Assembly: GCF_964020005.1 (NCBI RefSeq)
Contig: NZ_OZ026474.1
Location: 930,001 to 994,000, forward strand
Direction of reading: 5' to 3'
Length of the DNA stretch: 64,000 bases
Source of the DNA: Spiroplasma endosymbiont of Atherix ibis
GTDB taxonomy: Bacteria; Bacillota_I; Bacilli_A; Mycoplasmatales; Mycoplasmataceae
Position numbers and translations under genes: made by a program. The notes under the pieces are model-generated. The model did not search any database. It had not been told where the DNA came from and saw only the letters and a list, made by a program, of their open reading frames with translations. This document shows, one piece after another, positions 11,643-51,833 of the stretch. Numbering within the stretch: the first letter of the stretch is position 1; each line of letters begins with the position of its first letter.

Positions 11643-12689
11643 CTATTGAAAATAACTAAAAGTTAATTCAATTCCATTCTCATCTTTTAAATAATGTGCT
11701 TTTTTATTATAATCTGCATTTTGTTCTTCTGGTGATTGTGGTCTATTACTCTCTTCATATGGTTTTAAAGTAAATTGCATTTTATATATATTATTTTGTC
11801 CTTCAATTTGTTAAGAATTAAAATTATCTAAATCTAAATCATTGATAAGCAATGCTCAATAAGTTGCATTTTTTAAATTTTCAATAATAAATTGCATTAA
11901 TACACTATATTGATCTTTTCCAGGTAAAGTTCCTAATTAAGTTTTTGGAGTATCTATATTATTTGAAGCTTTGACCATCTCAGTTATAGTCATTTGATAA
12001 TTATCATTTTCAGAAGGAATAAACTCTTCAACATCATAATTTAATTCTAAACTTCCATAATAACTTGTGGGTTTTTCTTTTGGAATTATATCGTTTATTT
12101 TTATAGTTGTTCCATCTAAATTTTCATTATATCTAAAATTTTTAGAATCAGTTAACTCTTGTCCAACTTTGGGAAGTTGCCTAAGCATATCCATATTATA
12201 AAACATTAATCCCATCATTATTGTTCTTGTTCTATGATCATAAATTGTACCTATATTTGTAACTTTAAAAACATCTTGTAAATGTAAAGAATTTATAATT
12301 TTAATTGAAGCTGTTATTTTATCATTACTATTTTTTTTATTTGTAATAATAAACTTATAGTTCGAATTTCTAAACATATCAGTATTTTCTAAATCTACTT
12401 CAATTCCATTTTTAAAAACTTGGATACTTAGTTCACTTTCTTGATATCCAACTAATTTTAAACTTTGCAAAATTTCTTTTAATAAATCATCTGTATAAAA
12501 TATTTTTTGAATATCTATACTATCTAAATTTACATTTTCAAATCCATATTTTTTAATAGGCATAATTGGATTTGGTCTTCAAATATTGCTTCTATCACCT
12601 ACTTTACAAGAAATTACGTTCATTGTTAAAGAAGGAACAAAAATAAATATTGAAAAACTTACAATTAATTTATTAAATACTCTCTTCAT
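11643..12689 (-). pseudogene. Lipoprotein, cassette A, with two in-frame TAA codons
   Basis: ATG with SD AAGGAGG opens a hydrophobic signal peptide ending VISC, a plausible lipobox. The frame runs about 347 codons to TAG but is interrupted by TAA at 11937-11939 and 11811-11813, with no frameshift. Sequence after each stop is still coherent protein (GTLPGKDQYSVLMQF; QIEGQNNIYKMQF). Both stops could be Gln codons changed by one C-to-T. The gene follows the giant permease directly and overlaps its stop region with its SD. Possibly the translated part up to 250 residues is still made. Function unknown, presumably a surface protein. Confidence 0.75.
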
Positions 12690-12693
12690 TTTT

Positions 12694-15600
12694 CTAACCT
12701 CCTTGTACTGCCAATAACATACTTACTCTTTTTAAAGAACTTCAACTTAAAATATTACTTATTATATAAAGCAATCATGTTCCTAAAATTCCAGGTATTA
12801 TATATCATATTTGAAAACTTAGTGGTAATACTATAAGTGGTGCTAATACATTAATACTAATAGTTATAATTCCTCAAGCCATTCCAAATCCAATAATTGA
12901 ACTGACAATAGCAACTGGAATATATATACCTATAAATAATTTACTTATATAGAATTCTTTATAACCAAGTATTTTCATAACTGCTATTATTTTTAAATTT
13001 TCAGAAATTACTAAATTAATTGTTAATAAAATAATAATGGCACTTAAAAATATTGAAACAAATACAACAAAATAAATAATCATATTAATTGTGTCATTTA
13101 TTCTAGAAATGACTTTTAAAACTTCATCAGTTTTAATAGATTTTTCAATTGAACTATTTGAATATCCTTAATATGAAGTTATATTATCTGATCCACCATT
13201 TAAACCAATCATAGAATAATCTCCATATTTTTGATTTGTTGAGGTTCCTTTTGAAATATCTGTAAAACTATTATCACATGAACTTTTATAATTAAATAAA
13301 GGATATTGTGCTTCAAATAATTTCATATACATCTCATTTCCGGATTCATTTGTTCATTTTTTAAATTCACTAAATAATTCACTATTAGAAATATTTTGGG
13401 TTGATAATTGACTTAATTTTTTTGATAGTTTTTTTATTTCTTCATTTGGATTTTTAGGATTTCTTCACTCTTCCATAAAAACTTTAAATAATAATTCTTC
13501 AGATTTTTTATATTTAGAAATTTCTTTTGCTTTATCATTATTAATTCAATCTTTATTATCTCCATATTGATCAAAAATTCCAGATATTATGTATTCAAAA
13601 TCTAATAGATAATTTTAAATTGATATATTGGCATTTGCAATATTTTTTGACATATCTGTGGCACCAACTAAACTTGGACTAGTTATATCTATTTTTGATT
13701 TGTAAACTCTATTATCTCCTGTTGGATTTATAGTTTTATGTTTTCAACCATTTACCTCATCTTTTATAATTGAGGATTTATATAAATTTGAAGCTGATGT
13801 ATATTTATCTTTACTAGTTGAAGCTTTTAACGATGAAGTATCTCAATTATTAATTTCTACTTCATTATCTTTATAATTTAAAGTATTAATTATATGAGCT
13901 ATATTTACTTTATCTCCTGCTTTTAATTTTAATCTTTTAGCAAGAGATTGATTAATTAATATAGAATTATTATTTTTAATTAATTGTTTTTTTAAGTCAT
14001 TTCCCTTAACGTATTTTAAAATTTGAGTCTTATTATCTTCTTTAATACCATAAAGTTTTAAATTAAGATTTCTAATATAACCATTTAAGTAAATTCCAAT
14101 ATCCTCTTTTTTTTCATTGTAAGGTATTAAATTAAATAAAGTATTAAAATTTCCATCTTCTTTTTTAAACTCTTGTTCAAAAGTTGTTTTAATCATAGAA
14201 GGTGATTGACTATAAATTCCTTGTAAAAAAGCTTGTTGTAAGTTATTAAAGAAACATGCAATTATTCAATTGTAAATAGGAATCATAACTGTGATTCTTG
14301 ATTGAGTTCAATTCTCATTTTCATCTTTATAATCATAAAGAGATTTTTCCATAGGTTCATCACCTTCAATTTGTCCAGTTTTTAAAACAAAATTTGAAGG
14401 CATAATATAACTATTTCCAAAGATTTTTTTAAAGTTATTATTAGATATCATTGGTTTTCCATCTTTTTCAGATCCCCCTGTTTAATTCAAAAGGTATTTT
14501 GAATTAACATTTATGAAATAATCTTTTCTAAAAACCACTTAATCTAACCCAATAGTTTTTCTATATTTTAAATAAAACTGTCTTAACTTTTCTAACTCTT
14601 CAATATTTTCATTAGATTTTGAATTACTTGAAATAATATTTAATAATGTTTGTTTATTTCAATATTTATCTAAATTAAAAGTTTTTAAATCAGATCATAA
14701 ATTAAAAATAACTGTTTTATAGTAATTATTTTTAATTGAAATATCTGTAATATCGCCAAGATCTAAAGTAAGATTCTGATTTTTTAAATAATCTATATCA
14801 ATTGATTTATATGTCATATCAGTTAATGATCCCACATCAGTTGAAGGATTATAAATTTTTTGTGAAACGTCATTATTTAAATACATATTTCATACATTTT
14901 GAGATTCAGATAAATCTAAATTATTTGTACTACTATAAGGATTGTAAGTTTTATAAAAACTTGTTAGTACATTATAAATTTGATTGTGATATTATAATTG
15001 ATTATTGTATCCCTGCTTTATATAAGTTTTAACTTTATTTTCTTTTAATACATCTGGTATAATTGATCCAATTGTAATTAGTGATGAAGAAACTAGCATA
15101 ACTATAAAAACAGATAATAATTTTAAAATTGAACCAGATAATATAGCTCCTTTAAATCGTCCATCAAATTTTCGTCCTTTAACTAATATTTTTTTAATAG
15201 AAAGTTTAAATTTATTAGTTGAGCTTCTACTTTCATAAGTAATCATTTGTAAAGGTGTAAATTTATTAAATACATAGAAATATGTTATTAATGTAATAAT
15301 TTCTAGAAAAATAAACATTCCTAAAATAGTTACAAGAAATGATTCTCAAGATATCTCAAAAGATTGCATTTTTATAGAGAAAAAATTACTTGTTATTGAT
15401 ATAACTGCTTCTTGCATAACCATTCCAAATAAATACCCAACTGTTCCACCTATTATAGATATAAATAAAGGATATAAACCATTTGATCATATTAATTGAG
15501 ATTTTTTATAACCAAGAGAAAGTAGTACTCCTGATTGTCCAAAAGATTTTTTAATTTGATTATTTAACATAACTACAAGCATAACAATACTAATAGTTAA

Positions 15601-16800
15601 AGTTGTAAATACAATAATATAACTAAATATTTTATAACTATTTATTGTTAATTTTAATAATACTGTTCTTCCATAAAATTTATATCTTGTATCTGCTTTT
15701 TGCAATACAATCGGCACTGATTTATTTAAAGTATTTTCATAACCAGCATATAAATTAAACTCTTTTGCCTTATTCAAATTTGTTAAATACTCATTTATTT
15801 TATCTGTAGAGTTTTTAATATTATCTCTATTTTTAAACTTTCCTATAAAAGCTATTTCTCTATCTATATTAGAAGATGCTGAAATAATTTCTTGATTTTT
15901 TATTTCACTATTTGTATATCAAATTTTTTGATTTTCTTGATTATTAAGTTCAAAAATATTTTCAGGATAAATACTTTTATAATAAGTATTTATAATACCT
16001 AAATTTGAAGGTTCAATATATACTAAAGCTTCTTTTTTTGTATTTGGTAATGGTTTTGTTTCATTTACTATTGGAGTTGAAAAATCAGCATTTGAACCAA
16101 AACCAACAACTTGAAATCAATTTTGATTAGCATATTTTGTATTATCAATTCAAGAATTAATATCTATATTTTTATAAAGAGATAAATCAACTGGAATAAT
16201 TTCACTATCATCTACACGCACAGTTGTTCCATATTCATCATATTTTATTCTAATAACATCATCAATTTTAATATTATTTGCATTTGCAAATTGCTCATTT
16301 AAATATACTCATTTTTTTGTACTAATATTTGTTGCTTGAGTATATTGTTTTCATAATTCAATACTCATTCCTTTAGCAACAACAAATTTATCAATTTTTT
16401 GATCTGGATTTAAAGCAAAAACTTTTAAAGTTTTATTAGAAGATAAAGTAGAAATTCTAGATTCCACTCTATCAAAATTAAAAGCAAATTCTTTATTATT
16501 TAATTTATTTTGTAAATAAGTTATTAATAAATTATCTCTAATTTCATTGTCTGAAATATTTTTACTAAATAAATCTTTTACATATGAGGCTTTTGATAAA
16601 TCTATTACAAAGTCATGGACATTACTATTGCTTTCGGAAATAAAACTATTATAAGATTTCTCAACTCTGCTCGTTGAAGAGTAAGAAATAGTAAAAACAA
16701 AGGAAGTTAAAAACACTAAAATAATAATTGTAATTAACTGTATTTTATTTCTTAATAAATTTTTAAAAGCATTTTTAAAAAAAGGTTTTTGATTTTTCAT
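12694..16800 (-). pseudogene. Giant FtsX-type ABC permease, cassette A, five in-frame stops
   Basis: One frame of 1368 codons holds an N-terminal membrane helix (residues about 17-38), a large outer-face domain, an FtsX/MacB-like core of three helices around residues 365-495, another helix near 555, a second long outer-face domain and a C-terminal FtsX core ending at the TAG. The architecture equals that of the intact paralogue at 42.9-47.9 kb. Five TAA codons interrupt it (14992, 14539, 14482, 13615, 13168, lowest base given), all in the same frame, and no frameshift is present. No ATPase gene is adjacent. The first 602 codons, including the first core, could still be translated. Confidence 0.8.
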
Positions 16801-16803
16801 TAG

Positions 16804-18794
16804 CTAGTCGATGTTACTTTAAAACTTTGTGATTTATATCCATTTACTTTAATTGTTATAGTAGCTTTTCATGTATCATATAATGAATTTAATTTGATGA
16901 GATATTTATTATTACCTTTATTAAAAATTTCTGCAGTTATACCAGATTTATCAAATTCAACTGTAACAGTTTGATCTTGTAACATATTTATCATTTCAAA
17001 ATTAACTTCCAGTTCATTATTTATTTCAAAAAACTTATCTGAGATTTCCTCTGAAGGTTTTTGATTTAAAACTATAATATCATGTCCTTGATAAAAGTTA
17101 CCTGACATAGCTCCTCCAAAAAGACTAAAATATCCCATACCTTTAGAATATTTTTCGTCAAATTTTTTGTTTTCTTCATATTTAGCAAGATCACCTGCTC
17201 CTGTAGAAATTGATATTCCTAGACTACTACAACTTATATAAGTTTTAAATGCTGCTCCATCATGTCCATACATTTTATCTGATCCTGGTAAAACATCAAA
17301 TTTAAAGTCTACAAATTCTCCATTATCATCTTTTGTATTAAAAATAATATTTGTAAATTCTATAAAATGACTTAAAGATATTTGATTTTTAAAGTCTTGA
17401 CTTAACTGATTATAAATTTCAACTTTAGCATTTTTTTGATTATTTTTTGATTTATTAACCAAGTTTTGAGCACTTACCCTAACTTTTTTATTTTCAGGTA
17501 ATGATTCATATACAGTTATTCTATCTTCTTGAATAAATTTTTGAGTAAATTCAATAACAGTATCAGCTTTAAAAATACCTTTAATATCTGGAATTCCATT
17601 TATTTTAAAAGTTGTAGCTGAGACTGTAGATTTACTCATTATTTCTTTACCAGCAGCACCTAAACTTTTAACTAAATTATTTTTTATATATTCTAATTGT
17701 TTATTTTTAGCACCAATCTGTTCAAAAATAATTGCTGCCAAAGATGTTCTATCTTTTGAACTACTTAAAACTTTATCTATTTGGTTAAAAGCTCCTTTAA
17801 ATAATCTTATTTCCCCAAGATTTGTATTTACAAAATATTTTATTGGATCAATATTTTGATTTAAAACCAATGTTGTTTCCCCTTTTACAATTTGGCTTGT
17901 TTTTTTAGCAGATAACTTATAAAAAGCTGCTATTCCATGATTTTCATCCTCAAGAACATCTATAGTTAAATCATCTAATGATAAATTAAGTCCATTTATT
18001 TCATTAAAACTTGATAATACAGATTCTTTAGTTATTTGATAACCTTCATCTCCTATTGCAACAGATGAATCAATTGTTCCATCAGTCATATTACCTGCCA
18101 TAAGATTCAATACTAAACGTTCATCTGCTAAATCGATTTTATCTAATGTAATTTTAATATTTATATCAATATTAGTATTGTTTAATGACTTAACAGTTAA
18201 TTTTAAATCATTAACTTGTTTACTATTTGCTGTAACTTTAATTCTTTTATTTGCAGAGTCCAGTTCTGCAAAAGCATAACCTTCTTTATTAAAAGTAAAT
18301 TCAGATGGTTTTTTATCCTCTGATAATGAATCTCAATTTACTATTGTTAAATATTCATATTTACTAGCTTTTAAATCCAATGAAGTCTTGTCTAATTTAA
18401 ATTGTTCTTCTTGTTTTATTTTATTTACATTAACTGTAATTATTTCTTTATGTCCTATTTCAGACTCTACAAAAACTTTTATTTCAGCTTGTTTTGCATT
18501 AGCTAATGGACTTATTGTTATTAGTCCTGTTAAACCAATAGTTGCTTGAATAATATCCTTTTCACTATAATTAAACTTTGTTGGTTTAGACTTAGTATTT
18601 AAAATTTCTCAATTAGATATTTTAATATTTCCAGGATTCCTTGTATCAATATCTATCTGGTTTTTTTCTAACTTAAAATTTGCATTGGGAAATTTTTCAT
18701 CTCCATTTACATTTTTATTTCCAAATGAAACAACTGAAAAAGCAGGTGCTGAACATAAAGTTGCACTTGCTAATAAAATTAATAATTTTTTCAT
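16804..18794 (-). CDS. Large secreted or membrane-attached surface protein, cassette A
   Basis: 663 residues, intact. SD AGGA upstream of an ATG opening a signal peptide (MKKLLILLASATLCSAPA). At the place where related lipoproteins have SVVAC the sequence is SVVSF, so the lipobox Cys seems to be Phe; an earlier Cys at residue 14 is badly placed. Residues about 30-200 look like two bacterial Ig-like/spiralin-like repeats (KNQIDIDTRNPGNIKISNWEIL and KTSLDLKASKYEYLTIVNWDSL align with each other). The rest is a mixed domain followed by another beta-rich end (WKATITIKVNGY). Stop lies three bases before the permease start, so it is co-transcribed with the permease. Confidence 0.7.
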
Positions 18795-18897
18795 TTTTCC
18801 TATTTCTCCTATTTATTTTTTTTATTTTTTAAATATAATAAAAAATACTATTTTTACTAATAGATAATTTATAAATTAATTTTTAAAAATTCTAAAA

Positions 18898-19599
18898 CTA
18901 AATTAGAGCAGGTGGAGTTGTAGCCTTTTTGTTTTCTTTTAAAAATAAAGATACTTTTTCAATAAATAACGTATCTTTTTCAATATTTGTAGATGCTAAA
19001 AATATTCTTATTTCTTCTTTTAATTCTTTTGAGTAAATTTTTTCATCATAATTTAAAATATTTAGGAAAATTGAACCAAAATAAATTTGTTCAACTAAAA
19101 AATTAAATTCTTTATCATAACTATCTACTCACTCAATTTTTATTATAAATTTATATACAAAAAATAAAATAATTAAAGTAACCATCAATAGACAATTAAA
19201 AGAAGCAAAAACTAAAACTCCAATACTATATTCTAAATAATCTGTTTGTTTTGAAAAAAATTTTATTAGATAAATAATTACAAAAGGTGTTGTTAAAATA
19301 ACTAATTTACTAACAGCCATTAAATGATCTTTTTTAATCATTCATTTTAAGTTTCTTGTGTTATTTGAGTTAATTTCTATAAAATAAAGAAATTTACTAA
19401 ACTATATGTTTATTACTAAAAGTAAAATAAACATAAATAATATATTTATAGAAACATTAAAATAACTAAAAATAAAGTTAATTTTACTATTCATAAATAT
19501 TTTTTCTTCAGAAATAGCAGATAAATAAAAATGCAAAATTAAAGAGAAAATAAAAACACTTGGCATAATTTTTTTGCTAATTGCTTTAATTCTTAACAT
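18898..19599 (-). pseudogene. Four-helix membrane protein, cassette A, one in-frame TAG
   Basis: About 233 codons with four predicted membrane helices and a cytosolic charged tail ending TTPPALI. TAG at 19402-19404 splits it between helix 2 and helix 3; reading it as Gln restores one protein. I start at the third ATG (19599) because GGAG lies eight bases upstream and the promoter leaves no room for a leader before the first ATG at 19614. A paralogue of the same layout with a VPPNFLFFKI end lies before the intact permease at 48 kb. Function unknown. Confidence 0.6.
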
Positions 19600-19622
19600 T
19601 TTTTTCATCTCCATTTTTTTAA

Positions 19623-19651
19623 ATTATACAATTTCTTAATTTTAAATACAA
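19623..19651 (-). promoter_or_regulatory. Promoter of cassette A
   Basis: Minus-strand TTGTAT (19646-19651), spacer 17, TATAAT (19623-19628). The likely start of transcription is within ten bases of the first ATG, which supports the downstream start codon. Beyond the promoter (19652-19864) I see no gene; a run of seven G at about 19684-19690 is unusual here. Confidence 0.65.
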
Positions 19652-19864
19652 ATTTTGTGATAAAACGGTTGTGGGAAATATTAAGGGGGGGTAATAGCCA
19701 CATTAACTAATTTGAATTAAACAAATTTAAATCATATTCAAGTAAATATTTAAAAACTATTCTTAACTTTTTTTATTTCACAAAAATATTAACATAGATA
19801 ATTTTAAAAAAATTAAATAAATTTGTTTTTTTATTAAAAAAAAGATTTTAGTAAAAAGATAAAA

Positions 19865-19927
19865 AATACTATCACTTTTTGATAAAAATCTCTTTATTAA
19901 AGGATTTTATAAAAAAGTGATAGTATT
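19865..19927. repeat. 63-base near-perfect palindrome
   Basis: Arms aatactatcacttttt + ataaaaatc and gattttat + aaaaagtgatagtatt pair with only one unmatched base on each side and a 12-base loop. It lies in a gene-poor stretch between the cassette A promoter and a remnant ORF. It could be a strong terminator for the remnant, or a miniature transposable element; no target duplication is obvious. The bases from it to 20006 show no gene. Confidence 0.6.
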
Positions 19928-20006
19928 CATAATTTCTGTGATAGCATAATTACTAATACAAAAAGAACTTGAAAATCAAATTTGTAATTTAATAAATTTT
20001 AAAAAA

Positions 20007-20470
20007 TTAATAGCTAGAATAAATTTGACAAAACTCTTCTGCTTTTTTATTATTTTGTTTAACAAAAATCTTATATTCTTTTTTTAAGTTAACATAACTT
20101 TTAATAAAATCTAAAGTAATACCATCTAACTTTTTTGATATAATTCACTTATAAATTTAAATCAACAAATAATTTATTAAATGAAATATTTTTAAAACTT
20201 CTAAAATTTAACTTTAATCTTTGCTTTAATTAATTAGAAAATAATTCAATTCTGTCAATTAGATTTACCTTAATTTTTATTTATATATAAATTTGTTTTG
20301 CAGCCTTTCATAATGAATTTACATTACTAGAAAATTGCTCTCATGCATCATCTATATATAATTTAAATAATTACCAGACTTATAATAATTATCTCTAGAT
20401 TTTTTACTATTATTTCTTATTTCTTTTATTATTGAATGAATTAGTTAATTAAAGTTTAAAGTCTTAAAAA
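20007..20470 (-). pseudogene. Degenerate ORF remnant
   Basis: Several minus-strand pieces remain: one reading DDAWEQFSSNVNSLWKAAKQ near 20320-20370 and one of about 49 codons ending KKAEEFCQIYSSY and TAA at 20007. Stops and frame changes separate them, and no start is evident. The pieces look like real former protein (even amino-acid use, UGA-Trp codons) but the family is not recognisable. Boundaries at the 5' side are approximate. Confidence 0.4.
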
Positions 20471-20575
20471 TAAATCTTCATATTTTTTCTTTCTATTTTC
20501 TCTGAGAAAAATTTAATAATGATAAACAAAAAACTAACAGCTAAACTGAGAAAAATAAATTATTAATTTAAACAA

Positions 20576-20608
20576 AAATAGAGTTCTAGCAGCTCTAGAG
20601 CTCTATTT
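20576..20608 (-). terminator. Terminator of the PemK-like gene
   Basis: Stem AAATAGAG / CTCTATTT with an inner TCTAG / CTAGA pairing, followed by T-run on the minus strand. A diverged copy of this sequence context is at 21776-21870. Confidence 0.75.
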
Positions 20609-20623
20609 ATTTTATAAATAAAA

Positions 20624-21076
20624 TTACTTATCGCTATTAACTCAATTAAATATCTTTTTTATAGATTCTTTTCTAATATATTCTTTTGCAGCTCCTGATA
20701 AGTTTAAAATTTTACCATTTTTTGAATATAAACATTTCACCTCTGTATTATTTATTTTTTGAACAGCATCTCACATAATATATGATTTTTTACCTAATAC
20801 ATTAAATTCAGATCTAAATGATTTTGATATGACTTTACTTTCTGTTTTAGTTGTTAAAGGCACAACCAATAATATATAACCACCATTTTTGTCTTCTAAA
20901 AGATTAGAAAGAACTATTGCGGGTCTTGATTTTAAAAAACTACAATTAAAACTGCCATTTTCATTTTTATTACTAGATATATTAACTTATAAATTTTTTT
21001 CTAATTTTTTTAAAATTTTATTTGAATTAATTTTGTGCATAATAATTACATCATATTTTTTTATTTTTATACTCAT
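20624..21076 (-). pseudogene. PemK/MazF-type toxin-like gene with an in-frame TAA
   Basis: 150 codons from an ATG with SD GAGG. The segment SRPAIVLSN ... GGYILLVVPLTTKTES has the order expected of PemK/MazF-family ribonucleases (RP-x-hydrophobic strand, then a VVPxT strand). TAA at 20987-20989, at codon 30, interrupts it before these motifs; the rest of the frame is open. A one-base C-to-T change from Gln could explain it. No antitoxin gene is recognisable next to it, although a decayed ORF follows upstream. Probably an inactive toxin relic. Confidence 0.6.
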
Positions 21077-21090
21077 TTAAAAAACCTCTA

Positions 21091-21138
21091 TTAAATAAAA
21101 TCTCCCTTTTTTCAGGGAGGGCTTGCCGTTATGGGCAT
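21091..21138 (-). promoter_or_regulatory. GC-rich structured leader, attenuator-like
   Basis: The 5' region of the PemK-like gene holds a stem CTCCCT / AGGGAG followed by ATTTTATTT, and before it a small TGCC / GGCA hairpin, in a stretch that is over half G+C while its surroundings are about a quarter. A 15-codon frame (MPITASPPWKKGDFI) spans it exactly, without a clear SD. It may be an attenuator, a small RNA or a leader peptide. I found no match to a riboswitch I know. Confidence 0.4.
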
Positions 21139-21230
21139 AAAAAATGAAGTTATTATCAAAAGATAAATACCTCTAAAAAAATAATAGCATATATTTACTT
21201 TTATTAAAAAAATTTTAGCTATTTAAATAC

Positions 21231-21730
21231 CTATTTGTCAAACTCTTTTCCTAATTTATTTAAAATTTCATTTATACTACTCATAAAATCATTTATTTGT
21301 TTATTAGATAAGTTTGTACTATTTTTTTTAATTTTTCTAAATCATCTTGATTTGCTAAATTTAATTTTTTAGTTTTTATCCGCTAAATTATTTACTATAT
21401 TATTTTTTTAATATTAAAGTGTCTATGTTTGTTATTTTTACAAAATTATTTTTCGTTTTCTGCTATTTTTTGTTCATTTAAACTTAATTTATATTTTTTT
21501 AATTGTTTTTAAAATAAAAATTTTTTACATTTTGATAAATATTTATTTGATATTTTTTAATCTTATTTATATCTTAATCATCAATAGTTTAAACTTTTTC
21601 TCTTAATATTTTTTTATGAATAATATAAATATCATAAATTAGTAAATTATGAGTATTCACTAAAACACCAGTAATAATCTTTTTAATTATCATTTATATG
21701 AAAATCACCTGAAAATATTGATTTCATGTT
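21231..21730 (-). pseudogene. Decayed ORF next to the toxin remnant
   Basis: From an ATG near 21730 (MKSIFSGDFHIND) down to a TAG at 21231, fragments of protein-like sequence persist in changing frames; the last piece is NKQINDFMSSINEILNKLGKEFDK. Many stops. Might be the former partner of the PemK-like gene, but this is only a guess from position. Confidence 0.35.
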
Positions 21731-21775
21731 ATAAATATTTATATTTTAATTCATTTCTATTTTTAAAATATAATA

Positions 21776-21870
21776 ATAAAAAACTAGCAACTGCTAGTAA
21801 AGTAAAATATTAATTTAAACAAAAAAATCCTAGCTACAGTAGTGTTCTATTTATTTTAATTAAAATACAA
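21776..21870. repeat. Diverged duplicate of the 20.5-kb terminator region
   Basis: Order and wording match 20527-20622: aaaaaactag/aac, a tattaatttaaacaaaaa core and a gttctatttatttta end. It suggests that the remnants at 20.6-21.1 and 21.2-21.7 kb arose by duplication of one gene plus terminator, or that both are former copies of a mobile unit. Confidence 0.5.
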
Positions 21871-21933
21871 CATAGATTTTAAAATTACTTGTATCATTTA
21901 TTATGATAATATTATTTATGGAGGAATTTTATA

Positions 21934-22176
21934 ATGAGAGAAACAGCATATATACTTTTTATTATCGGAACAGTCCTTTGTGGAATTTTTTTAATACCTT
22001 TAACATGAATGATACCAATGACAATTATGACTAAAAATAGTATAGATGATAATAAAGAACATATTGCTTTAGGAGTTTGCCAAATTTTATTTATGCCTTT
22101 TGGAATAGTTTCAGGAATTTTGATATTAATACCTGAAGAAAATCAAAACCAGAAAGAATTAAATGTTCAAAAATAG
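21934..22176 (+). CDS. Small membrane protein
   Basis: 80 residues on the plus strand with a perfect SD GGAGG eight bases upstream. Two membrane helices: TAYILFIIGTVLCGIFLIPLTWMIPMTI and ILFMPFGIVSGILILIP, joined by a short charged loop. The IPLTWMIPMT motif recurs in small hypothetical membrane proteins of Firmicutes. After the TAG another frame stays open for about 20 codons to TAA, so the C-terminus may have been shortened by a frameshift. Monocistronic, followed by a good terminator. Confidence 0.65.
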
Positions 22177-22228
22177 ATAAAGAAAAAACAGGTTATGAGA
22201 AATATTATAATAATATTAATAATAAATA

Positions 22229-22256
22229 AAAAAATGTGCCTAGCACATTTTTTTTA
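22229..22256 (+). terminator. Terminator after the small membrane protein
   Basis: Stem AAATGTGC / GCACATTT with a three-base loop followed by eight T. It also lies 3' of truA on the other strand and could stop both. The bases from here to 22415 show no gene. Confidence 0.8.
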
Positions 22257-22415
22257 GTCAGTTAAATGTAAACAAAATTTATTATATACCTTTTCCTTCT
22301 TGTTCTATTAAAACTTATGCAAAAAAGATAAACTAATAAAAATTATTTACTTCTTGTTTTTTGGTATATTTAAGTTCTCTTAACTGACTTAAATATATAT
22401 TACACTAAAAAATAA

Positions 22416-23152
22416 TTAATAATCTATTTTTTTTAAAATAAGTCCTTCTGGATTTGCTATAAAAGGCATTTTTTCTTCTTTCCCATTTAAAACATTGTCT
22501 ATTTTTTGTACATTAGTCTTATCTAAACTATAAGCAATACTTGCTCCAACAATCATTCTTATTTGATATCTTATAAAACCTTTGGCTTTAAAAGTTATTG
22601 TAAAAATATTTTTCTCTAAATTTGTTTCAATTGAATTAATAGTTCTTTTTGTTTCAATTAACTGCTTTTCTTCAATTTTTAGTCCAGAAAAATTATAAAA
22701 ATCATGAGTTCCTATAAATATATTTAAAGCTTCTTTTAATTTAAACAAATTTAATTTTTTATTCGGTGAAAAATAATATCTATTTTTAAAAACATTATTA
22801 ATACCTAAATTAATTTTATATTCATAAGTTTTTTCTCTACAATTTCTAACTCTAAAATATTTTGTTATTTCCTTTACATTTAAAATTTTAATTCCTAATG
22901 GAAGACTTTTATTGAGTCCTTTTAAAAAACCTACTATATTAGGTTTAAAATTTAATTCTACTCATGCTTTTTGATCTTCTGCATGAACTCCTGAATCAGT
23001 TTTTGAAGCTCCAACTATTCTAAATATAGAGTTTCTTGCAACTCTTGAAATTGAAGACTCTAATTCTCCTTGAATAGTTAGTTGGTTTTTTGTTTAGCTC
23101 ATCCACAAAAATCAGTTCCATCATATTGAATTGTAAATAAATAATAATACAT
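22416..23152 (-). pseudogene. truA: tRNA pseudouridine synthase A, one frameshift
   Basis: Isomerises U38-40 in tRNA anticodon arms. The N-terminus YDGTDFCGWAKQ and GASKTDSGVHA (catalytic Asp of the TDxGVHA motif, present) and C-terminal FIRYQIRMIVG are classic TruA. The frame breaks after codon about 24: the run of six A at 23086-23091 (T on the plus strand) needs a seventh to continue into QLTIQGEL. Total length would be about 245 residues, normal for the family. Starts six bases after the ecfT stop, the usual ecf-truA order. Because the rest is intact, a sequencing error in the homopolymer is possible. Confidence 0.85.
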
Positions 23153-42911: not shown

Positions 42912-45900
42912 CTATTTCATTAATGATACCGGTGATTCTCTTCTAATTTTTCAAGTAGTAATTAAAATCGAAGTCACAAAACTTGTTACTAAAAATATTG
43001 CTGATAATAGTAATGCTCATCAACTTAATCCTAAAGGAATTGATCCTACATTTTTCCTAATATATAATCCAGCAAATAATACAATTGTTGCACTTCCACA
43101 TATTCCTAAAATCATAGCTATTGTTGCTAATATTGTTAAATTACCAAATGAATATTTAATAACTTTTCAATTTGAATAACCAAGAGATTTCATAACCAAC
43201 ATAAACTTTTTGTACTGATTTACATATAAATCAGTAATTATTATCATTGATAAAGTTGCAGTTATAATAATAACTATAATAAAAGATATTCCTATTGTTA
43301 AAATTAAACCCGCAATTTGATTAATTAATGCTTTTTGTTCTGTTAAAAACTCTACATTTTTCATTTCTAAACCATCATAGTATTGACTTCCTCCATTTAA
43401 AGTATATTCTCCTGTTCTAATTGATTTAGAAAATGAAGCTTGACTTGTTAAAAAGTATGGTTCTTTTGATTGAGACATAATACCTGTAAATCAATTAGAA
43501 GGGTAAAAGTTTTTTTGTTCTGTTGTTCCTCAAACTTGCTCTTCAAGTTTTCTTTCAATTAGATTTTTTGGTTTGTTTCATTCATAAGTTTTTATCTCTT
43601 GACCATTTTTTAATTGATAAGAAGATTTTTGTGTTTTTTCATAAACATAATTGTATGGAGTATAACTACTTGTTGAATAACCATGAAGTAAATTTGCTAA
43701 TTTTTGATCTGCAAGTATCACATTACTTCCATAAACATCAACTGTTGCAACTTGAACTATATTTATATTACTTGCTCATTGCATATTTACATCTTTATCA
43801 ACTATTCCTGGTTTTGAGTCTAGAAAATTCTGTCTAAAGAAAGAATTATGATAATTTAAGATATTTGAAATTTCTGAACCAATTTCTCCTTGTCCTTGAT
43901 ATTTTGAATCATAAAATAATGAATAAGGTCTTATTCACATAAAATCTTTAGCAGAGTAATTTTTACCTACATTAGTTCTATTTCAATCATCTATTGTTTT
44001 TTTAGGAATTATACTAGTATCTTCTAAATAACCAAATCATTTATTATTTTGTGATCCAGAATTTAGAGCAACTATACTATCTTTATATTCTTTTGGAATA
44101 ATTAAAAATAAATTATCAAAAGTATAATATGGTCTTATTTCTGACTTTAAAACTTTGTTTTCATCATTGTATAAATTAGCAAAAGCCATTGCATTTTCTG
44201 CAATTGATTTAGTGTTTTTTGTTCTGTTAAATGTCATTAAGTCTTGATTATCTTTTTTGCCAGTTTCATTATTATATATAAATGATCTTGCAAATGTAAA
44301 TTTTGAAGTATCCAATGTCGCTGGGTCTAAAAAATTCTGTTCTGAATAAGCTTTTTTATCTTGTTCTCTTTGTGAAGCTCAATCATTGTCATCATAAATT
44401 CAAGCACTATTTGGAATATTTGTTTGATCTTTTGATAATACTAATCTTTTAGAAACAAAATCATCAATTTTTATTGAATCACTTTTTGATTTGTTTAATG
44501 AAAATTTTGCTTGCTCATTCATAGTAACTGGTATATTTAATGTTCCATTTGAATAAAGAGTAAATCCACTTACAGTTTTAATAGTTTGATTTTTATTTGT
44601 ATCTGTACCATTAATTATTTTTTCAGCTTTCATTAAAGACTCTTGATCAATATACATTTTCTTTGAATTCTCATTTAATTTATAAGCTTTTTGATTTGAT
44701 TGAACTCCTGTTAAAGACATTTTTTTGTCATTAGAAATAAACTTAGTAGTTGTATAAAAATCATCATCTCCTGGAATATAATTTGTAAATGTTCACCCAA
44801 AAGTATACTGATTATATCTATTTTCACTTTTACTTAAATAATTTTTAACATAACTTGGTGATTGACTCAAAATAGCCGATGTTATTTGATTTTTTCAAGT
44901 GCTTTTATCTTCATTATTAATTTCTGATGGAAAAATCGCTTTTAAAATTGGGGGCAATCCCTCTGAAAGAGTTGCTGTTAGATTATCAATTTTCTTTATT
45001 CTATCTTCAATACTTATATTTTTATCTATTTCACTGTGTGCCATTCATTCAATAATTCTTTGCATATCTGCTATATTTATAGCTCTTCCCAAAGTTTGAG
45101 GTAAATTATTTCCAAAAATATAACAAACTAAATTTAATAGAGACTCACTTGTAAGCACTTCATTACTTCAATTTGCAGATAAATTTCCCTTTGAATCTTT
45201 AATATATAATAATTTAGGAATTAAAGAATAGTCAGCATTTCCAGTAACTTTTGTAACTAAATCACTTAAATAATCAACTGTTCCATAATTTCCTTTTACA
45301 TTTTTTAAATATGGTTCATAGTAATCTACACCATTTCAAGCTGATAAACTTGTTTTTGATAATGGTGAATTACCAATAGGTTCTAAATTATCTATTTTGT
45401 TAGAATATTTAACATTTTTATAATATGAACTTACAGCTTTATTAACCATTCCAGGAATTGACATCGATGTTGTTATTAAAAGTGAAGAAATTAATATAGT
45501 TATTGTTGAAACTAATGTTGCTTTCATACCACTAATTGCAAGTTCTATACTAAATTTGGTTGTAAACTTACTATTTTTTGTTAATTTAAGTTTTAAGTTG
45601 TCAATTCATTGAATTCTTTTAACACTCTCTTTCTTATTTATAATTTCAAGAACAGGCTTGTTAATAAGAATTATAGAAGTTATATATGAAACTAATATAG
45701 TAAGAATTCCAAACATTAGTATTAAAACACCCAAAGATCAGCCATTAAAATAAATTCGATTGTAAGATCCACCTGTATAAGAAATAAATAATCTAGAGAA
45801 TAATTCTTGAATTAAAGTTCCAATAAATCAAGATAAAGGAACAACAAATATTAATAATACTAATCCATATGAAATATAAGAAAAAGCAATTTGTGAATTT

Positions 45901-47909
45901 TTAGTTCCCAGAGCTTTTAAAATACCAATTTCAGAAGCATTAAATTTTATAGTTTTTCTTATAGCAATTAATGTCGTTGTTAAGCAAATTAATAAAATAA
46001 TTGTACAAACTATATATGAAATTGTTGAAAAAGTTTTTAAAACTATTGGAATTAATTCTCAATTATATGAAAATACACTACTTTTGTAATCTTTAAATGA
46101 ATAATTATAATTAATATTTTCAGGATTTTCTTTTGCAATATTTTCATTATCTGTTTTTAATAAACTAACATAATTATAATTTAAAGATTTAAATAAATTA
46201 ATATTTTGAATTTTTTTAGCTTTATCTTTAAATGTTAAAAATCTATAAACATTTGATGTTGTAACTTTTAGTTCATTTGCAGGAAGAATAAGATCTATAA
46301 TATCTTTATTTATATATATTATTGCTCCTTTATTATTATTAGGAAAAGGTATTGTTAAATCTGCAATAGGAAAATTAGTATAAGGATCAGCTGCAAAACC
46401 TGAAACAATTAAATTTGCTGCCCCAATTTTAATATTTGAACCTATTTGAATTTTATTAGAATGAGAGTATTGTGAATTTATCAATATCTCATTTTTAGTT
46501 TTTGGTTTTCTTCCATCATAAACTGTTACATTTTCATCAATTAATTTATCCATTATAACCATTCTATAATGTTTTTCAGATGCATTGTCTGAATAAATTA
46601 TTTCAGTTCTTGAATAAACATTTGCATCACTTACTAAACCAATTAATTTTTGTCTTATAAAATATGACGAAGCTATATCAGCATTTTGTAAATTATAAAT
46701 ATCTTTTTTGATAAATCCTCTTTTATCTTTTAATTTATTTTCAATGAAATCTCCATTATCAATTAATTTCAATCCATTAGCTTTATCTTTTACATTACCA
46801 TTTGAATCAACATGAGTTAATTGTCCTTTAGCACCATTAATATAGATATTATCTTCTTGATATGTATTTTTTGAAGAATTTTTAAAGTTAACAGAAAATA
46901 ATCATGAATATAATATTTCTTTATCTAAATCACTATTGTTTAATTTACTTGACTCTTTAAAACTTTCCATAATTCTTTCTTTTTTTGGTAAATCAATATT
47001 TTTTTTGATAGATTCTTGCATATGATATTCAACATAATCATGAATCATTTTATTAATTTGTACTACTAAAGTTAAAAAAGCTAAATCCATATAAGTATTT
47101 ATCTCTCTAACTAATTCACTTTCTTGTGAATAATCCAAATTATCATTAATTATAATATCTTTAGCTGATAATAATTCCTTTTTAAAAAGTAAACCAAAAA
47201 GAGAATTTTGTTTTTTAATTCCTTTTTCTTCTTGAAGATCTTTTATTAACTCAGTTTTTAATATTTTTATTGTTGATTTACTAAATTCACCCAATTGTTG
47301 AGCTATAAAATTATTATTATTTGTATAAACTTCTAAAGGAGAAAAATTTCTATTAACTCCATTAGTATCATCCTTGTCAAATTGATATCAATAATTTGTT
47401 TTGCTTATATTTTTCTTATTTCAATCTAAACCATATGCATTATAGTATGGATTTTGATCTCATTCATTTCAATTATAATTAAATCAACTATCGGAATACT
47501 TAGAATTATATATTAACTTACCTAAGGTCTCTTTAAAATCTTGGCTTTCAAATACTTTTGTAATAAAAGTTTCCTTTTCTTCTTGTTTTGCAATATTTAC
47601 ATTATACCCAACTGATTCATTGTTATATGTTAAATATTCATCAGATATAAAATCCATTATTGGCACCATTATTTGACTGCCACTAGCATTTGATGTTTCT
47701 AATATTTTTTCATCATAGTAATCAAATTTATTGGTTTTTTGCATAGTTTTATCATATTCATATCTAATTCTGTCACTTATAGAATTTGTAACACTTAATA
47801 TAAGAGATGCAAAAAATCCTAATATAACTATTAATATAAATTGTGTTTTATATCTAAATACAACTTTTAATCCTTGTTTTAATAATAAGAAAAAATTAGT
47901 TTTTTTCAT
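42912..47909 (-). CDS. Giant FtsX-type ABC permease, cassette B, intact
   Basis: 1665 residues in one frame, with dozens of UGA-Trp codons. N-terminal helix (residues 20-42), long outer-face domain (about 45-610), first FtsX core with three helices (about 620-760), a further helix at 795-815, second outer-face domain (about 820-1490) and C-terminal FtsX core with three helices (about 1500-1655). The cores have the short motif LGTKNSQIA / LGYSNWKVI typical of MacB/FtsX permeases. Same plan as the broken protein at 12.7-16.8 kb. No ATPase is nearby, so an ATPase elsewhere would be needed. SD AGGAG follows a 16-A run. Probably handles lipoproteins, peptides or envelope stress, by analogy with MacB/Lol. 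Confidence 0.85.
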
Positions 47910-47935: not shown

Positions 47936-48652
47936 TTAAATTTTAAAAAACAAAAAATTAGGAGGTACAATTCCTTTTCTATCTTTTTTAAGTCTTTTTG
48001 ACTCAATATTATTAATTAAAATTATAGTTTCTTTTCAACTTTTTTGAATAGAATAGATTTTTTTATTAATTATTTTAATTTTTTGAAAAATTAATTTTAT
48101 AATTTGATTTAGCTTTATTGATTTTTTATAAATAGCATTAATAAATTGTTTATTTGAACTTATAACAGTTTTTATTATTAAATAAAAAAACATTAATGCA
48201 AAAATATAGAAAATTAAATATACTATAAATAAATTAAATAAAACTATTAAAGAAAAAAATATAACATTAGTATTTAAATATCTAAGTATATTAGAATTTT
48301 GAAGTCAATTTTCTTTAATTGTAATAGCAATTATTTTTTCAAAAGAAATATAAGTATTTAAAAAAGATATTCAAAAAAACATAAAAATCACACTAATTAT
48401 TAAACAGAAATTAGAATTAATATTTAAAAAATTTCTTTTTGAAATTTCAAAATTACATTTCTCTATATGTTTTACAAATCTTGAAATATTTACAGTAATA
48501 AAAGAAAAAGAAAAAGAAAATAATAAAATATTTGCAACAAATCAAATAACTAATATTATAATTCTATTTTCTAAATAACTTTGTATTAAGAAAGTAAAGA
48601 AGAATAATATAAATAAGAATATTAAATTAATATATCTTTTAAAGTCTTTCAT
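47936..48652 (-). CDS. Four-helix membrane protein, cassette B
   Basis: 238 residues, SD GGTGAG. Four hydrophobic helices in two pairs, separated by a charged cytosolic loop (FVKHIEKCNFEISKRN), then a long cytosolic Lys/Ile-rich helix and a tail ending VPPNFLFFKI. Same layout as the gene at 18.9-19.6 kb, whose tail ends TTPPALI. Stop is followed by a 16-A run and the permease start, so the two are co-transcribed. No known family recognised. Confidence 0.7.
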
Positions 48653-48731: not shown

Positions 48732-50513
48732 TTAAAATATTCTTTCGATTTTTACTTCACCATTCTTTATCTCTTCTAAATAAATATTTATTTTTACTAT
48801 CCCAAACAAATCAAATCTCATATAATTTAAATTCTTTCAAAAACTATTTTCACCATTTTTCATCCTATTATAAATACACAATCTTAATAAACCGTTTAAA
48901 TTAGAGTTTTTTACATCAAATGAATATAAGATATTTGAACTTTTAAAAATATTTCTTGTCATATCCAATAAATTTAAGCTTTTATCCAATTCTTTAAAAT
49001 AGTATGAACTATATTGATTTAAATATCCATTCATTATATTTATATTTCATTTATTATTTTTTCCACTCCCTGTTTTATCCAATCTATTTCAAATTTTAGA
49101 GTCTTTACTATTAAGATAATTAATTTTAAATTTATTTTGTAAATCTAAAAATTCTGCAGGATTTCAAATATTTTTATAAACACCAAATAATTTCAATGAT
49201 AAATCTATAAAACTTTTATCAGTCAAATTATCATTTAGTCCATTCATTGAATAAGAAACTGCCAATTTAAAATCAGGAAACTGATGATCATATGAAAAAT
49301 CATTATTCCCTATTTTAATAACAGGACCAACAAATTCAACATATCCCATAGCCACTGCTAAGTCATAATACTTTGTTTTTTGATATTCAGATACTTCAGT
49401 TTCACTTAAAAACCCTTTTAAAAACTTATCCTGAGCAACTCTATATTTTTTCTTATTTTTTTCTAAAGTCTCTAAATTAAATACATCATCTCTTAAAATT
49501 CTTTTTATTTCTTTTTCATTTCCTAAAAGGATTTTTGATATAGTTTCTCTACTATCAATTTCTTTTAATTTTATAGCATTTTGATCATCTAAGTTATTTA
49601 TAAATAAATAATCCTTATTTTTTTCTAAAAAATTATCTGTTTTATAAATACTTGGTTTAGAATAACCAATTTGTAGTGAAGGAAACTTTGGTTTAAAATA
49701 CTTATCATTAATAATTTTTAACAAACCTTTTTGAAAATCTTTATTTTCATTATAATATTTCTTCAATTGAGAATTTGAACTTACAAAAGCTTCATAATCT
49801 TGTTTTTCTTCTTTAATATCATTTCACTTCAAATTCACATACTTTTGTTCTTCTGAAGAAGTAAACATATCCTTTACTATATTTTTATACATTACATCTC
49901 CAAAATATTTAAATGCCTTACTTTCAGTTGAAGTATACTTCAAAATTCCTGATTGTTTAAACTTCTCAACATCATTAACTCCTTTATAGTGAGTTACAAT
50001 ATTATAATCCACTATCACATTACCTATATAAACTCCAGCAGACAATTCTTCTGAATTAATTTCAAAATTATCATTAAAAATCAACTCAATATGTTCAAAA
50101 ACCGAATCCACCTCATCCAAAATAATTTTATATTCATTAACTTTTTTCAACTCATTTAACTTCTGTTTTAACAACTTAACTTGAAATAATTTCTCAACAT
50201 CACTAGTCAACTGTTTTTTGTGTTCAACTGTCAATTTATTCTCTGATTTTGAGAATTTCTGAATATTTTCTTTATTCAAAAATTTATAATCATTTTTTGC
50301 ATCTTCTAGCGTAATCAAATTACTTGCAACCTCTTTTTCATAATGCTCTGATCATATTTTTGCAACATCCTGTTCAAAATTTCGAACAACCTAAGTAATA
50401 TCTTTTTTAGACTCTTCTGGTTTCTTATCAGATTTTGAACCACACGCAACAACACTTGTAGCTGATGATGCAACAATCCCTACTGCTGCCAATACAGTTA
50501 ATAACTTTTTCAT
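48732..50513 (-). pseudogene. Large lipoprotein, cassette B, one early in-frame TAG
   Basis: SD AGGAGG, then a perfect lipoprotein signal ending SVVAC GSK. TAG at 50391-50393, codon 41, interrupts the frame shortly after the lipobox; Gln (CAG) would restore it. The remaining about 550 codons are open to TAA. The body is Lys/Asp/Asn-rich and mainly helical, with a conserved-looking WNPAEFLDL segment. A lipoprotein with this stop would be cut to about 17 mature residues. Expression may vary because of the T15 promoter spacer. Family not identified; reminiscent of large Spiroplasma lipoproteins. Confidence 0.7.
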
Positions 50514-50679: not shown

Positions 50680-50964
50680 ATGGCAAAACTTGGTCAAAAA
50701 TTTAGTAAATATAGTGAAGAATTTAAAGTAGATGTAATACTTTATGCAAATGAAAACGGTGTAACAAAAGCTTATAAAAAATATAAAGTACCAATGGGAA
50801 CAATTGGAACCTGACAATCAATCTATAGAACAGATAATAATTTATGCATTAATACAAAATCTAAAGAAGATAAATCAGAATTAGAAAATTTGAAGGAGAA
50901 ATATGAATCCTTAAAAAAGTCTTTAACCTCATGAGAAACTACATGTCTAAAGAGGAAAAAATAA
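50680..50964 (+). CDS. IS3 OrfA, transposase DNA-binding subunit
   Basis: 94 residues, SD AAGGAAG. N-terminal helix-turn-helix (KYSEEFKVDVILYANENG ... YKVPMGTIGTWQ) and a leucine-rich coiled end. The A AAA AAG heptamer at 50913-50919, in the correct phase, allows -1 slippage into orfB and production of an OrfAB fusion, the active transposase in this family. Confidence 0.88.
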
Positions 50965-51833
50965 ATTTTATTAAATCAAGAGATTATAAAACAACAATTA
51001 AGGAACTACTCGAGTTACTAAATTTAAAAAAATCCTATTGAGATAAATATAAAAATCATTTTTTCATAGATAAAAAAAATAAATTTGATTATATAAAATA
51101 CGATATTTTAAAAGTATTTAATGATAATAGAAAGCAATTTGGATATAGGCAAGTTTCAAAAGAACTATCTCATAAATATTCAACATATATAATTCGAAAA
51201 GTAATGCGATAAAATAAAATTATAGCTAGATTTGCTAAAAATCAATTAAAAAAAGCAAATAAAAGAAAACTACAAAATTCAAATGTAGAATATCCAGATC
51301 TTGTTCAAAGAAAATATAGTGCTGTCAAAGAAAAATACAAAATTTTATATACAGATATTACTTATTTAATTTGAAAAGGAAAGAAAGCTTATAAATCAAC
51401 AATAATCGATGGATTCACAAAAGAAGTTATTTCATCAGATATTTCTTATAAAATGTCTGCAAAATTTGTAATTGCTACTTTAAAAAGAGAAATTAATGTT
51501 ATTAAAAAAATAAAAGATCCGAGTGGAATAATTATTCACTCAGATCACGGAGTTCAATACACAAGCAAAACGTGAAAAAATGTTTGTGATTCGAACAATT
51601 TAATTATATCAATGGGAGCGAAAAAAACATGTGCAGATAACATTGTTATTGAAAGTTATCACTCTTTACTTAAAAAAGGAACAATTCATAATAACAAATA
51701 TGAATCACTTGAACATTATATAACTGATGTTATTGAATGAGATAAATGATATAACTCAAAAAAATCTCAAAATAGTTTTTTAAATATAGAATGAAAAAAT
51801 AAAGATGTCTTTTATGGCACAATAACTATATAA
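50931..51833 (+). pseudogene. IS3 OrfB, DDE transposase, one in-frame TAA
   Basis: About 300 codons in the -1 frame relative to orfA. Catalytic D-D-E visible: YTDITYL, IHSDHGVQY and NIVIESYHS (Asp and Glu separated by 35 residues or close to it). One TAA at 51210-51212, after VMR in the helical N-terminal part, breaks the frame; the rest is open. So this copy is probably inactive unless the stop is an error. Confidence 0.85.

Follow-up and report, generated by a model that had tools for sequence, protein, structure and literature searches.

Giant duplicated FtsX permeases in a Spiroplasma endosymbiont and a lone type VII ATPase that may serve them in trans

We analysed a window of 64,000 nucleotides from the genome of the Spiroplasma endosymbiont of Atherix ibis (contig NZ_OZ026474.1, positions 930,001 to 994,000; G000:C1:930001-994000), a mollicute whose genome spans 1.07 Mb in one contig and reads TGA as tryptophan. 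The window holds two gene cassettes, A (11.6-19.6 kb) and B (42.9-48.7 kb), each combining a giant, internally duplicated FtsX permease with a small four-helix membrane protein (4TM). We find that the permeases fall into the type VII class of ATP-binding cassette (ABC) permeases, that no ATPase of that class is encoded beside them, and that the genome contains exactly one such ATPase, standing alone; from comparative sequence evidence, we propose that this ATPase probably acts in trans on many permeases. The comparison set comprised 40 mollicute genomes, 20 within the window's genus (the window's own genome, G000, and its relatives G001-G019) and 20 outside it, with the cassette and permease families labelled A, A', B, C, D, E and F.

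Sequence similarity marks cassettes A and B as paralogous: their permeases share 21.6% identity over 1306 columns (E 3e-20), and their four-helix proteins match at E 5e-5. An initial annotation, made from this DNA without database searches, had described two such cassettes, each with a four-helix protein carrying a PP motif in its tail, a giant FtsX permease with two outer-face domains and a lipoprotein, and all of these elements are indeed present.

The classification of the permeases draws on domain content, topology and predicted fold. PF02687 scores 70.6 bits on the permease against a cut-off of 25.5, and two large outer domains occur in both permease A and permease B. In permease B, with eight predicted transmembrane (TM) helices (eight or nine in the permeases here), TM1 (residues 22-40) precedes outer domain 1 (~41-629) and TM2-4 (630-747), and this arrangement is repeated as TM5 (800-818), outer domain 2 (~819-1531) and TM6-8 (1532-1650). 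The top PDB matches of an AlphaFold2 (AF2) model of residues 1-790 (predicted local distance difference test 81, predicted template-modelling score (pTM) 0.76) are all type VII proteins, led by the S. pneumoniae MacB-like protein 5xu1 (Z 16.3) and LolE (Z 16), with further matches to MacB (Z 15), YbbP (Z 11), YtrF, FtsX, HrtB and BceB. About 350 of the 790 modelled residues align to type VII permeases; the remainder enlarges the outer domain. The coupling-helix motifs of permease B are EIGILKALGT and FMLVMKSLGY, an LG[YATV] motif that follows the second and sixth TM helices and is also present in other families, and coupling-helix LGY motifs are found in both repeats of nearly all listed permeases, orphan and ATPase-linked. 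Based on this model of half of permease B, we assign the permeases to type VII, with the MacB/LolE/YbbP fold.

The genome encodes approximately 30 ABC ATPase domains, of which exactly one is of the MacB/LolD/DevA class. This 321-aa protein (G000:C1:17469-18431) is encoded between hslO and dusB with no permease nearby, retains the Walker A, signature and Walker B motifs, and is the sole match in the genome at E<=1e-38. It scores best on the DevA (207 bits), MacB (201 bits) and LolD (196 bits) models, in each case below the curated cut-off; the score on the FtsE model TIGR02673, 180 bits, is lower than any of these and below its cut-off of 265. Its best PDB matches are MJ0796, MacB and BceA. Every other PF00005 match in the genome is either part of a system that brings its own membrane partner or gives its highest score on a model outside type VII. 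We additionally observed that the protein (L069:1183-2148 in our locus set) is extended at its N terminus by about 85 residues and ends in a [DE]xxW-like motif at the C terminus that is seemingly kept in the orthologues of distant mollicutes.

Orthologues of this ATPase are present in 39 of the 40 mollicute genomes, including all 36 near-complete ones. In ten of these (G022, G025, G027, G028, G032, G033, G034, G035, G036 and G039), all outside the window's genus, the orthologue directly adjoins a giant FtsX permease, mostly one closest to the A and A' families. G028 also carries a second, shortened copy of the ATPase (74%) about 0.6 kb from a 1331-aa permease, the nearest Spiroplasma relative of which is the A' family. 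Genomes with a single permease (two FtsX domains), such as G033, G034, G036 and G039, keep the ATPase adjacent; in the window's genus, genomes carry 6-18 FtsX domains and the ATPase stands alone. Some Spiroplasma encode extra type VII ATPases, for example G007 at 497 kb, and these adjoin single-FtsX permeases, indicating that ordinary pairs also exist and stay together. Thus, the co-occurring orphan ATPase that the initial annotation had raised as a possibility was found, whereas its reading of the cassettes as a machine without an ATPase is best replaced by that of a type VII ABC system with the ATPase probably acting in trans. The annotation was right that neither cassette has an ABC ATPase of its own: none of the appropriate class is adjacent, the nearest being EcfA1/A2 (24.1-26.5 kb) of the energy-coupling factor (ECF) system, conserved neighbours of ecfT/truA.

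The same separation holds across the rest of the genome, where no type VII ATPase gene adjoins any of the permease loci examined. Besides A and B, the genome has a C cassette (L013; 4TM, 747-aa lipoprotein and 1431-aa permease), a second A-type cassette (L084), a decayed D permease (L083), an F permease (L085) and an E permease located between fakA and plsX (L086). Among relatives, the B and C cassettes swap at one spot, occupied by C in G001, G004 and G010, by B and C together in G019, and by B in the rest. The neighbourhood of permease and four-helix gene is conserved: the four genes of cassette A are intact at the same place in six relatives (L087, L089, L090, L093, L095 and L096), and permease B has orthologues in six, with the 4TM alongside in five of them (G005 lacks it). 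Overall, of 42 full-length four-helix genes, 40 have an FtsX permease domain no more than 5 kb away, compared with an expectation of 3-10%, so that the pairing goes well beyond chance. Permease and four-helix protein form a conserved module, and the idea of an envelope machine is supported. The trio as such is not mollicute-wide: both the permease class and the ATPase extend across the mollicutes, but the four-helix profile matches 14 of the 20 genomes of the genus and none of the 20 outside it; by tail and position, the neighbouring genus has at least one four-helix look-alike (L249).

The four-helix proteins diverge very strongly everywhere but in their C-terminal tail. An alignment of 23 family members showed about 20% identity between subfamilies, and nothing is invariant across them except a pair of prolines close to the C terminus, in the context KK(A/G)xTPP. 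In the AF2 model (pTM 0.48), four long helices, the last about 100 residues long, are followed by a loose tail, and a Foldseek search of the model against the PDB returned no significant match. Across the fetched loci, 34 of 77 small open reading frames (ORFs) with 3-6 TM helices carry the tail motif, compared with 3 of 1005 other ORFs, and the bearers include diverged proteins missed by the four-helix profile. The protein carrying this short motif has diverged, as have the permeases, while the motif itself has stayed constant; this points to a shared partner, for which the orphan ATPase is the obvious candidate. As a side observation, the F cassettes (L236, L237 and L238) encode a 227-229 aa four- to five-helix protein that ends in a KKxxxIPL-like sequence and not in TPP, apparently a variant tail.

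Taken together, these data suggest a model in which each cassette encodes the membrane components of an ABC machine of type VII (the MacB/LolCDE/YbbAP class). The permease would correspond to a LolC-LolE-like pair fused in one giant chain (TM1, outer domain, TM2-4, then the repeat), usually accompanied by one or two lipoproteins and by the four-helix membrane partner. One orphan type VII ATPase would be common to all permeases of the genome, which would explain why the cassettes contain none. The ATPase dimer would bind the two coupling helices through their LGY motifs, and closure upon ATP binding would move the outer domains by mechanotransmission, so that work would be done on the co-encoded lipoproteins or on outer-face lipids of the single membrane, with nothing crossing it. 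Such lipoprotein or lipid handling is a tentative suggestion for the task of the machines. The four-helix protein would dock or select the shared ATPase through its KKxxTPP tail, and docking is the most likely role for this tail.

Several observations weigh against this model. The link between orphan ATPase and permeases is comparative, not physical or genetic. The tail is probably cytoplasmic, a placement that relies on the helix count and the positive charge at the N terminus, given the modest confidence of the four-helix model and its lack of a PDB match; furthermore, the motif used in the enrichment test came from the same loci. The D family, as well as the E family in G005 and G018, has no recognised tail-bearing four-helix neighbour, and the four-helix gene at the E locus of G000 is shortened (L086), implying that the tail is not universally required. 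Conversely, two four-helix genes with the tail have no FtsX gene in their vicinity (L240:6154-6930 and L241:6518-7339); both encode a KKSTTPP tail and are located near valS, together with genes for two further conserved small membrane proteins, and the tail may also be used by another system. Finally, the lipoprotein partners differ between cassettes and contain no domain of known function in Pfam or NCBIfam, so the task cannot be read from their sequences. Adhesion and protease-like processing, two functions that had been put forward for the cassettes, find no backing, as no adhesin or protease domain was detected in any partner with these databases.

The tail itself allows a serious rival to ATPase docking, namely, that the PP is a polyproline, EF-P-dependent ribosome-pausing signal that coordinates membrane assembly with the genes downstream and is no docking peptide. 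The PP is found among the 20 C-terminal residues, where an otherwise hypervariable protein is most conserved, and the four-helix gene usually lies upstream of a permease or lipoprotein gene, both of which would suit pausing. However, the KK and T positions are conserved as well, more in the manner of a linear motif, between 1 and about 14 residues separate PP from the stop codon, and some four-helix genes have no permease after them, which leaves pausing as a rather doubtful explanation. A different challenge concerns the permeases, which might need no ATPase if they served passively as scaffolds, adhesins or platforms for lipoprotein docking, in which case the orphan ATPase would have another job. 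The cassettes examined in G000 contain no type VII ATPase gene, and the outer domains, which account for most of the protein, far exceed those of MacB or LolC. Yet orphan permeases retain the LGY signature in both coupling helices, as ATPase-linked ones do, their transmembrane part still has the type VII fold, and the ATPase is conserved everywhere and adjoins such permeases in many other genera; we therefore consider a passive role unlikely. It is very unlikely that individual permeases are powered by other, less obvious ATPases of the ABC-2, ABC exporter or ECF kinds. ABC exporter genes do occur near two cassettes (L013/L015 for C and L083 for D), but these exporters either are half-transporters that already include a membrane domain or are parts of conserved housekeeping neighbourhoods; the C-locus exporter is broken in G000, and the other free-standing ATPases score best on ABC-2, phosphate or ECF models, not on type VII ones. 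We rejected the exporters as the ATPase of the C or D cassettes because they bear their own membrane domain.

Comparison with known systems indicates that the parts are of familiar kinds. LolCDE shares the TM1, porter-type outer domain and TM2-4 layout, an ATPase (LolD) on whose model the orphan ATPase scores well, and co-encoded lipoproteins; unlike LolCDE, the halves are fused here, the outer domains measure about 590 and 715 aa, the operon contains no ATPase, the envelope has a single membrane, and a four-helix protein is added. Scores on the LolC/LolE model TIGR02212 reach 17 bits for a fragment of A and, at best, 31 bits for an A' orthologue, against a cut-off of 362. In MacB, the ATPase is fused to the N terminus of the permease; no ATPase domain, which would have spoken against the initial annotation, was recognised in any partner here. 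Acidobacterial duplicated orphan permeases (ADOP) share the duplicated FtsX permease and are encoded apart from an ATPase, but they come from an unrelated phylum, and the match to their model TIGR03434 is 12.1 bits compared with a cut-off of 622; we know of no four-helix partner of ADOP. In the G035 pair, which we take to be the MG064/MG065-type permease-ATPase pair of mycoplasmas, the ATPase orthologue (54%) directly adjoins a giant duplicated permease, whereas here the ATPase is alone and the permeases have multiplied. The type VII permease of the E. coli YbbAP-TesA system is likewise a pseudosymmetric single chain that contains two outer domains and two coupling helices, and it acts as both halves above the ATPase dimer (PMC12646458). 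YbbP differs in having 10 TM helices, of which TM5-6 form a linker pair, and in being paired with an ATPase of its own, YbbA. The permeases here have 8-9 predicted helices (8 in permease B), their outer domains are much larger and no ATPase is adjacent; the score on the YbbP model NF041854 is 9.2 bits against a cut-off of 999. YknWXYZ and AS-48 EFGH are type VII systems with an extra small membrane protein (YknW; AS-48E, with four predicted TM helices) (PMC5985334), a likeness by description, although their ATPase is encoded with the system and a KKxxTPP tail is not reported there. MsmX-type multitask ATPases offer the precedent of one free-standing ATPase for several sets of membrane domains, but these are type I importers, not type VII machines (PMC7658222).

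The arrangement of these parts, that is, exchangeable surface modules built on duplicated type VII permeases, a single core ATPase that would serve them in trans and a four-helix protein whose tail is invariant, appears to be new. We found no description of it in the literature, in a search that was thin for subscription journals, and nothing direct on giant FtsX permeases of Spiroplasma, on MG064/065 or on FtsX in the minimal cell; one review terms the FtsX of the minimal cell an 'ambiguous identification' (PMC6389857).

Cassette A, placed between rplM-rpsI and truA/ecfT, is in decay. Its genes (Table 1), ordered 4TM, lipoprotein 1, permease and lipoprotein 2 in the 5' to 3' direction of the minus strand, were read against the G019 orthologue (tblastn and codon table) and carry 1, 0, 5 and 2 nonsense codons, respectively, each gene aligning over its full length in one frame with no frameshift. 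The permease, 85.5% identical to its intact G019 orthologue across 1372 aa, is interrupted by TAA at 14994, 14541, 14484, 13617 and 13170; the 4TM frame still encodes the tail KKATTPPALI, with the PP at about 18915-18910. In lipoprotein 1, VVSFG replaces the lipobox VVACG of relatives. A three-way comparison with G019 and G017 gave 0.087 amino acid changes per site in permease A on the window branch and 0.056 on the G019 branch (0.035 and 0.021 at second codon positions), as opposed to nearly equal branches for permease B (0.075 and 0.074), which fits a recent loss of constraint on A.

One could suppose instead that cassette A is not dying and that readthrough or errors in base calling account for its eight in-frame stops, given that every lesion is a nonsense codon, none is a frameshift, and the identity of permease A to G019 equals that of intact permease B (84.3%). 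Against this, the stops include both TAG and TAA, nearby rplM, rpsI and alaS have no such stops, the window branch of permease A but not of permease B has changed faster than the G019 branch, and the lipobox Cys of lipoprotein 1 is gone; we regard such an explanation as highly improbable. It is worth recording that Glu codons (GAA/GAG) in the nearest relative underlie four of the eight nonsense codons and that the absence of indels is odd for a pseudogene as large as this one (11646-19599).

Table 1. Features of the two cassettes and their surroundings (window coordinates; strand as given)
Feature	Coordinates	Strand	Size and state
Cassette A lipoprotein 2	11646..12689	-	348 codons; internal TAA at 11939 and 11813; 79% to G019 orthologue, full length
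Cassette A duplicated FtsX permease	12697..16800	-	1368 codons; decaying; PF02687
Cassette A lipoprotein 1	16803..18794	-	664 aa; open frame; lipobox Cys lost
Cassette A 4TM	18901..19599	-	233 codons; one internal TAG, codon 66 at 19404; G019 orthologue 83%, full length (tblastn)
Stretch holding second cassette A' in relatives (4TM and 1455-1491 aa permease)	19650..22415		non-coding debris here
Cassette B duplicated FtsX permease	42912..47909	-	1665 aa; intact; PF02687 in two stretches; orthologues 50-84%
Cassette B four-helix protein	47936..48652	-	238 aa; intact; family alignment and AF2 model
Lipoprotein beside cassette B	48732..50513	-	594-codon frame; leader in frame; TAG at codon 41
IS3-like transposase remnant (orfA and broken orfB)	50680..51833	+	adjoins lipoprotein; rve integrase core E 1.5e-6

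Cassette B is flanked by the ribosomal-protein operon and alaS. Its four-helix protein has a long C-terminal helix and the tail RKGIVPPNFLFFKI, in which residues 230-231 are the PP invariant across the family. The contrast drawn earlier between one intact and one dying cassette is accurate for A and, in B, for the permease and the 4TM only, given the early stop in the neighbouring lipoprotein. This 528-aa protein had also been taken for the large extracellular partner of cassette B, and we rejected it as a dedicated partner because its family has 21 matches in G000 (22 in G019), is missing from the other B loci, and is represented here by a broken copy. The expanded family, of about 600 aa with the leader MKKLLSVLA..ACG (for example L111-L116, L120 and L121), includes many copies in G000 that are truncated or contain stops. 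No match to the lipoprotein model MOLPALP (TIGR04547, cut-off 65 bits) was reported for the window lipoproteins or the cassette A orthologues, and the D-cassette lipoproteins score 42-49 bits, under the cut-off.

Next to cassette A, no recognisable remains of the A' cassette were found in 19.65-22.4 kb. An 81-aa ORF on the minus strand there (20624-20869) resembles, by eye, a truncated MazF/PemK-like protein and has no Pfam match, and truA (tRNA pseudouridine synthase; 22419-23152) has a frameshift after codon 22, although the copies of the relatives examined are intact.

A shared motor would account for the fact that large surface modules can decay singly, as cassette A does, with the rest unharmed. 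More generally, it is possible, and we advance it with caution, that Spiroplasma-like mollicutes run many machines with one motor, an ancestral ATPase bereft of its adjacent permease and coupled to several paralogous giant permeases by fast-evolving four-helix adaptors, constant only in their KKxxTPP docking tail, such that modules are gained, lost and decay independently of the motor. An ATPase conserved in nearly all mollicute genomes examined thereby gains a likely job and client permeases. If true, the multitask-ATPase principle of type I importers would extend to the mechanotransmission (type VII) class, and these organisms, with one membrane and no wall, would offer a genetically simple route to ask what such machines do to surface lipoproteins.

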